This document shows positions 14,648 through 22,021 of a stretch of DNA of 43,204 nt, one piece after another. A program made the position numbers and the translations under genes. The notes under the pieces were generated by a model. The model saw nothing but the letters and a program-made list of their open reading frames with translations. It was not told where the DNA came from and did no database searches. Source of the stretch: Desulfobulbaceae bacterium (lineage in GTDB: Bacteria; Desulfobacterota; Desulfobulbia; Desulfobulbales; Desulfobulbaceae); the NCBI GenBank assembly GCA_030613515.1, contig JAUWLT010000002.1:1-43204 (forward strand), read 5' to 3'. Each line of letters starts with the position of its first letter. Position 1 is the stretch's first letter.

Positions 14648-15181
14648 CTAATTTTCAAGTATCTGGAAAATTGTATCAAGAGAGGGGCGATCCGCCGGAC
14701 CATCACCAACATAGTGAAAACGCACAATGCCATCCGGATCGATTAATACATCGCCACCCCGTTGATAGATATCACCCGTTGCCTTTTTTGGTTTATGTCC
14801 TTGCAAGATTTCCTTAAAATAGGCCCACCATGTCTTCGGCCCCCAGATGTCCCAAAAGGAGGCGGAAAACATACCATACCCTTGGTATACCTCTTTTGAC
14901 TCGTCGATCAAAAATGGCCGGCTGATGCCGGTTTCTTTACAGTATTCATGAGCAATTTCTTGAGACGCAAAGGTGATGACGACAATCTTTACATTATATG
15001 TGTTGAATTTTTCTTCATTCTCCCGCAACTGCGAAAGATGCGCACGGCAAGGCAGTCAGCCAAGGTGACGGAGAAAAACCATGAGCAGCCAATTCCCTGT
15101 ATAATCGGAAAGCCTATGAACTTTACTTTCACTATCTGAAAGATTGAAAGAAATTGCAGAATGTCCGGTTAGATTTACCAT
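14648..15181 (-). CDS. Peroxiredoxin-like selenoprotein (UxxC), in-frame UGA
   Basis: 177 residues if UGA at 15056-15058 is read as selenocysteine, U42. The ATG at 15181 follows a good ribosome-binding site (GGGGGGAC). Upstream of the UGA the frame encodes VNLTGHSAISFNLSDSESKV and WLLMVFLRHLG. Downstream come LPCRAHLSQLRENEEKF, VKIVVITFA and FLIDESKEVYQGYG, then WGPKTWWAYFKEIL and a C-terminal GGDVLIDPDGIVRFHYVG block. This is a complete AhpC/TSA (PRXL2-like) thioredoxin fold, and the UGA falls exactly on the first Cys of the FLRHLG-C-xPC motif, giving U42-L-P-C45. The alternative TTG at 15028 would give a protein without its active site. The gene lies between the Usp and histidine kinase genes and probably reduces peroxides or disulfides. 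Confidence 0.88.
15023..15047 (-). promoter_or_regulatory. Candidate bacterial SECIS element of the Prx-like gene
   Basis: Starting 9 bases after the UGA, CCG-TGCG pairs with CGCA-(GTTG)-CGG, leaving a CATCTTT apical loop 16-22 bases from the UGA. That is the position expected for a bacterial selenocysteine insertion element. The stem is short and bulged, so the structure is tentative. Confidence 0.45.
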
Positions 15182-19837: not shown

Positions 19838-21031
19838 TTATTCTGATAGTGGGAGGGTTTGCTGGAACACCGGATAAGAGATGGGTGCAGTGTTCCGGTA
19901 TCCGATTCTTTGACGACGTGCTTCATCCAGGAGATGATAGCGCACGGTTACGGTAAGTGTACTGCCACCGAGTAAGTTATCATGTTTCCAGCTGAAGGAA
20001 AATGTTTCAGGCATATTCTTTTTCAGTCTTGTGTCCCACAGATCGACAATAAAGGGCCGCCACATGATGGTCCGTTTAAGCGTGTAAGTTTTCTCTTTGA
20101 AAACCTTACCCGAAGGCTCGCTCAGGGAAAAGAGGATGGTCAGGTGGCGGTCCGGAGTACCGGTGGGCAGGAAATGATCTGCTCCGATGTTGGTTAAGCT
20201 AAGATTTGCCTTCCTGCTTTTTCCTTTTTTGATAATTTCAAGATCGGCCTGGAGCGCTTTTTGTACTGTTTTTCTATCGTGTCCGCCTTGCCAGAGATGA
20301 CGACTGGACTGCCTGTTTTCCCCGTCATCTGCTGCCGGCCTGTTGATTTTTGGCATATGACAACCGTTGCAGTCAATAGTTGCAGCTTGTCCTTTTCTGA
20401 TCTCACTGACTGTTCCGCAGGGCGGTATACGAAAAAAGGTGTCCCAGCGTTTACCGGAAACCACGTGACACTGGCGGCAAACCCCAATCCCGGCGGTCAT
20501 CAGCGGATCAAAACGGGTGGGATGAGGGGCCTCGACGTCTGCATACGGGCCGATAATTACACCGTCCCGGAGATGGCAGACCACGCAGGTTACGCCTTCC
20601 TGCTGAAGCTCCTGGTCAAAATCCGGGTTTTTCTCAAGAATCGGCTTGAAACGTTCCTTGTCCTTGAATCCGAGAACAAGGTTTTCCTGCTGATTCTGCA
20701 AGGGAATATGGCAGTTGAGGCAGATCTGCTGGTTACCGTCAAAGACCAGGTCTACCTGATAATATGGATCTGTCCAGGCTTTGGCATGCATACTGGTTGA
20801 CCATTCCCGGTAGATCTGTTGGTGACATTCACCGCAGGATGCGGCTTTCAGGGATTCTATCCCCTCCGGGGGAATGGTGATGAGCATGGGCACGGCAAAA
20901 TCATCGCTGACCACGAAGATATTCATGGGCCGAACCATTCTCCAGGTCAGGAATACTGTGCCGGCCAGGATTATGATTGACCAGATAATCTTTTTTGGTG
21001 TTGCTCTTCCCATCATAGGGTTCAGCACCAT
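19838..21031 (-). CDS. Membrane-anchored five-heme cytochrome c
   Basis: 397 residues. One N-terminal membrane helix (residues 15-33) anchors it, with the rest periplasmic. Five CxxCH heme sites are visible at 66-70 (CGECH), 104-108 (CLNCH), 149-153 (CVVCH), 185-189 (CRQCH) and 221-225 (CNGCH). After the heme domain, residues 250-397 form a beta-rich domain (LTNIGADHFLPTGTPDRHL). The layout resembles cytochrome c554-type multiheme proteins. The electron partner is unknown. Its ATG is 7 bases behind the end of the DsrE-like selenoprotein gene, so the two are translationally linked; a redox pair is a reasonable inference. Confidence 0.88.
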   Translation of the reverse strand: MVLNPMMGRATPKKIIWSIIILAGTVFLTWRMVRPMNIFVVSDDFAVPMLITIPPEGIESLKAASCGECHQQIYREWSTSMHAKAWTDPYYQVDLVFDGNQQICLNCHIPLQNQQENLVLGFKDKERFKPILEKNPDFDQELQQEGVTCVVCHLRDGVIIGPYADVEAPHPTRFDPLMTAGIGVCRQCHVVSGKRWDTFFRIPPCGTVSEIRKGQAATIDCNGCHMPKINRPAADDGENRQSSRHLWQGGHDRKTVQKALQADLEIIKKGKSRKANLSLTNIGADHFLPTGTPDRHLTILFSLSEPSGKVFKEKTYTLKRTIMWRPFIVDLWDTRLKKNMPETFSFSWKHDNLLGGSTLTVTVRYHLLDEARRQRIGYRNTAPISYPVFQQTLPLSE

Positions 21032-21038
21032 CCCGCTG

Positions 21039-21356
21039 TTAAAAACTGATTACCTTGTCACTCGTTTTAATCAGTTGATAGAGATCAATCTGTTTAGCAC
21101 GGCTGTGATATCCATCCTCCACTCCATGGAGGTCAAGAAGTTTACCTCAGGCCTGCAGCACTCCTTCGGACAGGGTAAAGAGTTTAGCCTGATCCAGAAC
21201 GGGGTATTTCTCTGATGACAGGGCAGCATAGTTGACGCACGGACCATCCAAAAAAATAGTCACCTCGTCCATTTGTTCCAGCATGAGGTTTCCCAGCCTG
21301 AAACAGTTCCAGAGGATTTCAGGATTGTCGCTACAGGCGACCAGGGCGATGTTCAC
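21039..21356 (-). CDS. DsrE-like selenoprotein, in-frame UGA
   Basis: 105 residues if UGA at 21147-21149 is read as selenocysteine, U70. The first part, NIALVACSDNPEILWNCFRL and EVTIFLDGPCVNY, is a DsrE/DsrF-like fold. After the UGA the frame stays open for 35 codons and encodes GKLLDLHGVED and IDLYQLIKTSDKVISF, the standard end of this family, whose redox motif is ACGxCL. Selenocysteine replaces the first Cys; the second is Leu (A-U-G-K-L), so no resolving Cys is present. I chose GTG 21356 because AAGGAG lies 7 bases before it; a TTG two codons earlier is too close. The end is 7 bases before the cytochrome ATG, which supports readthrough. Confidence 0.9.
21116..21132 (-). promoter_or_regulatory. 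Candidate bacterial SECIS element of the DsrE-like gene
   Basis: CCTCCA and TGGAGG form a perfect 6-bp stem with a TGGAG loop. The loop lies 21-25 bases after the UGA, within the window used by bacterial SelB. It is a stronger hairpin than that of the Prx-like gene. Confidence 0.65.
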
Positions 21357-21358
21357 GA

Positions 21359-22021
21359 TCAATCTCCTTGTGTCTGTTTTGAAAAATGTGGTGCAGTTCC
21401 GGAATGTACATCGACGGAGTCAAGGTCAACAATTTTTGAAGTACCATAGTAGTCCTTGATTACCACATCTTCAAGCTGTGAAATTTTCTGTATCAGTATT
21501 TTCAACTCATTCAGGTTGTTCTTGATACCATCCATCTCCCGGTACGGTTCGGAATTCCGGTCAAAATCGTCCTGGAGGAGTTCCAGGTTACCCATGGCCA
21601 CAAATAGAGGACTGTTCATCTCATGGGCCACGGTTCCGGCCAGCGCCTTTATCGATTCCAACCTTTCCCTTGCACGGGCCTTTTGCCTGTCCTGCAAGAA
21701 ACCCGTAGTGACTGCCACGATGTTAAACAGGCCGATCTCCAGCAACCGATCCAGATCACCAGGGGTAAACCCTCGCCAGTGAAAAGTTGCATAGGTAAGA
21801 TAAAACGCTGTGATGGACAGGGCGGTGATAACTGCCCCGCGAAGACCAAACCAGAACCCACTGAGAATGATCGGCAGAAAGTAGAGTTCCCTGGCAACAA
21901 TGTGCCCTTTTTCAAAAACATGAGGAACCACCAGGTGCAGTGCACTGATGCCGATGACCATACAAACAATGGCCAGCAACTTCTGTTTGCCTAAGGATTG
22001 CTGAATTTCAGTAGAAGCCAT
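21359..22021 (-). CDS. Membrane histidine-kinase-like protein lacking the ATPase domain
   Basis: 220 residues. Residues 1-112 are the same DUF4118-like membrane module found in the kinase at 13542 (ARELYFLPIILSGFWFGLRG; LLEIGLFNIVAVTTGFLQDRQ). A dimerisation helix follows with H133 in TVAHEMNSPLF. After the second helix (to about residue 185) there is only a short tail; the N, G1 and G2 ATP-binding boxes are absent. The frame ends at a clean stop overlapping the start region of the DsrE gene, so this looks like an intended form, not a frameshift. It may receive phosphate from, or form heterodimers with, the full kinases nearby. It is the first gene of the unit containing the DsrE selenoprotein and cytochrome. 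Confidence 0.82.
   Translation of the reverse strand: MASTEIQQSLGKQKLLAIVCMVIGISALHLVVPHVFEKGHIVARELYFLPIILSGFWFGLRGAVITALSITAFYLTYATFHWRGFTPGDLDRLLEIGLFNIVAVTTGFLQDRQKARARERLESIKALAGTVAHEMNSPLFVAMGNLELLQDDFDRNSEPYREMDGIKNNLNELKILIQKISQLEDVVIKDYYGTSKIVDLDSVDVHSGTAPHFSKQTQGD

Follow-up and report, generated by a model that had tools for sequence, protein, structure and literature searches.

The window, a stretch of 43,204 nucleotides from a Desulfobulbaceae genome (G000), carries on its minus strand a short DsrE-like gene with an in-frame UGA (Table 1). From the GTG start codon at 21356 there are 69 codons to the TGA and then 35 more to a TAA at 21041-21039, and the next ATG lies 7 nt further on, at 21031; if the UGA is read as a stop, the gap to the next gene becomes about 115 nt. 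A continuation of 35 codons, ending 7 bp before the next ATG, had been predicted from the letters alone (hereafter the sequence-only reading) and is what the coordinates give. The truncation expected of a standard gene caller is likewise seen in the standard ORF list, where the product ends at 71 aa. The predicted 105-aa selenocysteine (Sec) product begins with (M)NIALVACSDNPEILWNCF, and its C-terminal part reads SEGVLQA-U-GKLLDLHGVEDGYHSRAKQIDLYQLIKTSDKVISF. The motif is Q-A-Sec-G-K-L (UGKL), with Leu at the second Cys of CxxC, and Cys residues at positions 8, 18 and 40 mean that the protein is not cysteine-free.

Table 1. Features at the locus and elsewhere in the window (window coordinates)
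Feature	Coordinates	Strand	Remarks
DsrE-like gene, predicted to contain Sec	21356-21039	minus	105 aa; homologues in frame through the UGA
Putative ribosome-binding site AAGGAG	21364..21369	minus	7 nt before the GTG; from sequence
In-frame UGA, predicted Sec70	21149-21147	minus	aligns with first Cys of ACGKC in Cys homologues
Hairpin of bacterial SECIS type	21132-21116	minus	7 bp, 3-nt loop GGA, 14 nt past the UGA
Upstream gene, DUF4118/MASE1-like membrane part plus HisKA	21359..22021	minus	ends 2 nt before the GTG
Downstream c-type cytochrome gene, five CxxCH	21031-19838	minus	Pfam cytochrome c554/c7 matches; 7 nt past the TAA
SelL-related redox protein gene	14648-15181	minus	in-frame UGA at 15058-15056

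The cytochrome next door does contain the five heme-binding motifs claimed for it. A second selenoprotein gene of the window encodes a SelL-related redox protein (NF040769, 197.8 bits against a cut-off of 120), and its U-L-P-C motif contains the interrupting UGA.

Decoding of the in-frame UGA

Ninety-three distinct relatives of the gene were gathered from genomes of the order, a scan of named genomes and a phylum-wide search, and their distribution is to be read as a lower bound. About 41 of the 257 genomes of the order contained a relative, at roughly 53-88% identity and with one in-frame TGA. The named-genome scan, which was pattern-based and gave at least 80 loci, added Desulfosarcina, Desulfobacula, Desulfotignum, Desulfovibrio, Nitratidesulfovibrio, Solidesulfovibrio and others, and the phylum-wide search gave further relatives; the whole-genome searches covered Desulfobacterota-type genomes. 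A UGA occupies the Sec codon in 91 of the 93 relatives, and the other two, from Desulfovibrio sp. OttesenSCG-928-A18 (L182) and genome G399 (L232), have Cys there and read ACGKC. Alignment with these Cys homologues upholds the proposal that the UGA replaces the first Cys of an ACGxC motif, and all full-length homologues conserve the stretch beyond the UGA. Pooled over close relatives, pN/pS is 0.12 before the UGA and 0.17 after it, indicating purifying selection on both sides.

Among the loci collected, L097 (G144:C5:3206-3373) is a decaying Sec-DsrE copy that retains the 3′ part only, with an extra TAG and a broken hairpin; loss of the 5′ part and of the hairpin is expected once selection ends. 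In L242 (G370:C1:9245-9562), an extra in-frame TAG stands at a conserved Trp, through either a sequencing error or pseudogene formation.

The hairpin beyond the UGA pairs positions 18-24 with 28-34, numbered from the T of the TGA. Described earlier as a perfect 6-bp hairpin, it proved to be real but slightly longer. Taken by itself it is unremarkable: 33 of 200 shuffles fold equally well, all seven pairs also form in 9.7% of synonymous recodings, and folding energy alone was rejected as proof, its z being only -0.97. A chance origin is excluded only by comparison across relatives, where 98.9% of stem cells are paired in 76 distinct sequences as against 76.0% in 500 synonymous recodings (sd 1.3, maximum 79.9%), and where 70 of the 76 form the complete 7-pair stem as against a mean of 6 (maximum 14) in the recodings. 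Moreover, 32 cells are changed on both sides of the stem, the covariation score is reached by none of 500 shuffles, and shuffling and register-sliding controls agree. These compensatory changes alter the protein, the pairs CTC/GAG (Leu/Glu, 38 sequences), CTT/AAG (Leu/Lys, 17) and ATC/GAT (Ile/Asp, 12) together accounting for 67 of the 76. The loop is GGN in 75 of the 76, so that the apical loop opens with a G. Neither Cys homologue forms the full stem (five of seven pairs in L182, six in L232), a contrast with the Sec forms that is suggestive only.

The genome itself (2.67 Mb in 291 contigs, 85% complete) was searched for the Sec machinery, as the sequence-only reading had advised, and selA, selB, selC and selD are all present. 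The two outcomes that this reading had named as refuting, missing machinery and an unconserved segment past the UGA, were both looked for and did not occur. SelA scores 620 bits; selB (311 bits over its pieces) lies on a contig other than the window's and is adjoined by selC, a tRNA-Sec with anticodon TCA (UCA); and there are two selD genes, each with its own in-frame TGA, which would suffice alone to indicate that this genome uses UGA for Sec. From the UGA/Cys pattern, the purifying selection, the covarying hairpin and the machinery, the UGA of the window gene is almost certainly decoded as selenocysteine. An ordinary stop, whether from truncation of the protein, pseudogene formation or a sequencing error, would sit well with a hairpin that is unexceptional in isolation, but is very improbable and for practical purposes refuted by comparison, given the same-codon UGA in 91 distinct relatives, the conserved 3′ part, the Cys homologues, the covarying hairpin and the complete machinery.

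Subfamily, fold and gene neighbourhoods

By sequence comparison, the window gene is assigned to a distinct subfamily of the DsrE fold, found in Desulfobacterota-type bacteria as searched, with the signature A-Sec-x-K ... LHGV[E/K] or IHGVD. In a tree of 99 proteins, built on few columns and with many unresolved forks, its clade stands apart from the classical UGVC-type DsrE selenoproteins with supports of 100/99. Lys at +2 is invariant (93 of 93, as UxK or, in the Cys forms, CxK). The +3 residue of the 91 Sec forms is Leu in 46, Cys in 38, Ser in 6 and Ile in 1, so that 53 lack the second Cys of UxxC; the Desulfovibrio members carry UGKC, the cultured Desulfosarcina alkanivorans (L150) carries UGKL, and both Cys forms keep the +3 Cys, two cases that prove nothing. 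Within the clade, the tree calls for a minimum of three changes to explain Leu at +3 and for one or two to explain Ser, Cys-bearing lineages lying in between, and judged from the outgroups the +3 Cys was likely lost rather than gained. The position of window Cys8 holds Cys in 53 of 83 members, and 11 Sec proteins contain no Cys whatever. As regards the motif, the claim of a lone Sec that has no resolving Cys is thus correct, but the feature is not individual to the window gene, and a distal Cys8 remains.

The description of the protein as DsrE-like stands by fold and by profile, but the window sequence itself falls below the Pfam cut-off. Against PF02635 (gathering cut-off 22.7 bits) it has no match at E 1, while L086 scores 17.5 bits, below the cut-off, and L171 and L182 score 24.2 and 25.0, above it. 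No Pfam or NCBIfam model matched the window protein, and the subfamily members that were tried likewise retrieved no dedicated NCBIfam model. An AlphaFold2 model from 99 family members (mean pLDDT 98.3, pTM 0.91) has Sec70 closing strand 66-70, the fourth, just before helix 71-77. It matches YchN (Z 16.6), a Sulfolobus DsrE/F protein (15.9), TusD (2d1p_A, 14.4) and DsrE (2hy5_A, 14.1), with unrelated folds from 6.8. The model therefore predicts with confidence a YchN/TusD/DsrE-type fold that places the active chalcogen just past strand four. Origin as a YedF fragment was considered and rejected: the window protein has no match to TIGR03527 (cut-off 110 bits) at E 1, the subfamily members tested reach at most 12.8 bits, and the protein is a single domain, not TusA-like plus DsrE-like. 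A separate YedF is encoded in the window genome.

No operon conserved across the whole subfamily was found, neighbours being common to subgroups only. The upstream HisKA gene is not a conserved neighbour, and the cytochrome recurs only in L053 (G115), at 74% identity. In Desulfobulbus-type genomes, a tandem DsrC-like gene lies directly upstream in nine loci, 24-116 nt away, and 2.3 kb away in a tenth (L077); several of these loci have a rhodanese gene further upstream, and in seven Desulfobulbus-type loci a selB-like gene was seen by inspection about 0.7 kb from the Sec gene. The tandem protein fuses two DsrC domains (for example L078, 6596-7255) and sometimes occurs in two copies (loci L070-L080). 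On inspection of L078, the tandem proteins seem to be without the penultimate acceptor Cys of DsrC; upstream of the tandem gene, the same locus encodes a rhodanese domain fused to a rubrerythrin/ferritin-like domain. A strict partnership with tandem DsrC was rejected, since five loci (in G034, G038, G049, G050 and G056) have no Sec-DsrE after the tandem gene and run straight to an alpha/beta hydrolase gene. Elsewhere, a pyridine nucleotide-disulphide oxidoreductase gene (thioredoxin-reductase-like) adjoins the gene in L144, L147 and L155, lying downstream in L155, where a class-V aminotransferase of the cysteine-desulfurase type is encoded upstream.

Another recurrent neighbour is TsoA, a LULAXC selenoprotein. 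The gene for it lies upstream of Sec-DsrE in L049, L052, L089, L152, L153 and L232, and in L049, L152 and the Cys form L232 the DsrE gene directly follows TsoA, which itself comes after an ArsR-type regulator. TsoA also stands beside DsrE in L091-L093, L098, L101, L105, L106 and L155. Members of all three DsrE clades are adjoined by it, including the classical UGVC and the CGTC clades, often after an ArsR-type regulator, and DsrE seems to recur in the TsoA neighbourhood. At the genome level, TsoA showed no enrichment (about 9 of some 41 window-clade genomes as against 75 of 257 overall), so that the adjacency alone is informative. The window genome has its own ArsR-TsoA-TsoB cluster (L276 3874-6228, G000:C98), with UGA codons in both TsoA and TsoB. 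As TsoB is a rhodanese/DsbD fusion selenoprotein, the common theme would be sulfane sulfur and thiol chemistry.

Candidate roles of the selenocysteine

By analogy with TusD and DsrE, a role as a cytoplasmic sulfane-sulfur carrier has about an even chance of being correct. A donor protein of the rhodanese or cysteine-desulfurase type would supply sulfur, which the selenolate would bind as Se-SH and hand on to an acceptor, one chalcogen acting as in TusD/DsrE; a resolving Cys in the motif would be dispensable under such a mechanism. The invariant Lys at +2 may stabilise the anion, and members that keep UxxC may use a selenenylsulfide. In A. vinosum, sulfur bound for DsrC is carried by DsrE-Cys78 alone, and the sole essential Cys of E. 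coli TusBCD is TusD-Cys78 (PMC3397948). Since one Cys is enough for TusD/DsrE proteins to function, the oddness of a lone Sec had been overstated, and a single active chalcogen, being normal for such proteins, argues for a sulfane-sulfur carrier and not a dithiol oxidoreductase. A single Sec with an expendable neighbouring Cys fits better because a dithiol cycle needs two chalcogens. The sulfur-type context (TsoA, the tandem DsrC-like and rhodanese genes and the aminotransferase of L155) was also counted for the carrier role. Counting against it are the want of neighbours conserved throughout the subfamily, the HisKA protein and five-heme cytochrome beside the window gene, which offer no pointer to a sulfur relay, the tandem DsrC-like proteins seemingly without an acceptor Cys, the five loci in which tandem DsrC and Sec-DsrE are separable, and the 38 Sec members with UxxC, which would suit redox chemistry too.

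Those same members favour a Sec-based thiol oxidoreductase or peroxidase-like reductant, in which the oxidised Sec would be resolved by Cys8, by thioredoxin, by a small thiol or, in members that have it, by the second Cys. The frequent Cys at the Cys8 position and the pyridine nucleotide-disulphide oxidoreductase beside three of the genes point the same way, and published DsrE-like selenoproteins have been entered as UxxC redox proteins (PMC1088965, PMC13188914). In 53 members, nonetheless, Leu, Ile or Ser stands in place of the second Cys, through several changes on the tree, and 11 members are free of Cys; a redox role appears rather unlikely. Less probable again is a selenium-handling protein, a carrier of selenide or selenium or a sensor of selenium supply instead of a sulfur carrier. 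The selB-like gene close to the Sec gene in the seven Desulfobulbus-type loci could be read in its favour, as could YedF, a selenium-metabolism protein with a DsrE-like domain that the window genome encodes, but the YedF matches are weak and far under the cut-off, and selB is on another contig in the window genome and is not a general neighbour.

The sulfane-sulfur carrier is the role preferred here, and the reading as a whole, a Sec-decoded 105-aa protein of a DsrE-fold subfamily that most likely carries sulfane sulfur, appears probable. A more tentative proposal, somewhat short of an even chance, is a Sec-based relay in which this widespread and unannotated one-chalcogen DsrE subfamily would carry sulfane sulfur on Sec instead of Cys, as a selenyl sulfide, together with Tso or DsrC-like proteins. 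To our knowledge, no natural Sec-based sulfur carrier of the DsrE fold has been characterised.

Comparison with known systems

DsrE-like selenoproteins (PF02635) form a known family, as the sequence-only reading had stated, catalogued in the Sargasso Sea in 2005, in D. vulgaris in 2006 and among the GOS families "DsrE 1" and "DsrE 2", always as UxxC. They resemble the present subfamily in belonging to the DsrE family, in having Sec at the first Cys of a CxxC-type motif and in the kind of host; they differ in being UxxC throughout, whereas the subfamily has UxK plus Leu, Ile, Ser or Cys, and the window protein, with UGKL, does not have their motif. The UGVC-type clade found alongside shares about 27-37% identity with the window subfamily. 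The D. vulgaris entry of 2006, WP_014524487.1, may well belong to the subfamily, as its Desulfovibrio members carry UGKC, in which case the new element would be the Leu/Ser form and its spread. No paper on a lone-Sec DsrE came up in the literature searched.

In sulfate-reducing and sulfur-metabolising bacteria, gene callers presumably shorten or miss some 90 genes of this kind. Moreover, one fold offers a natural series of UxxC, UxxL, UxxS and CxxC, which makes it testable whether Sec renders the second Cys dispensable and whether Sec serves as a sulfur carrier or as a redox centre.

The closest structural relative is E. coli YchN, which aligns over all 105 residues at 1.9 A and is the only clear PDB sequence match of the family profile (E 1.6e-5); the first Cys of its CKTC motif aligns with Sec70, YchN having Cys and not Sec. 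TusD and DsrE, of TusBCD and DsrEFH, share the fold and the sufficiency of one active Cys for sulfur transfer (PMC3397948). They differ in sequence, at 16-18% identity, and no TusB/C or DsrF/H partners were seen beside the gene. The TsoA and TsoB families were reportedly defined by Haft and Tolstoy in 2025. These selenoproteins (TsoA NF045695, TsoB NF045694) are akin to the subfamily through the adjacency of TsoA to three DsrE clades, and they differ in that the window gene lies outside the ArsR-TsoA-TsoB operon, which is on contig C98 of the same genome.
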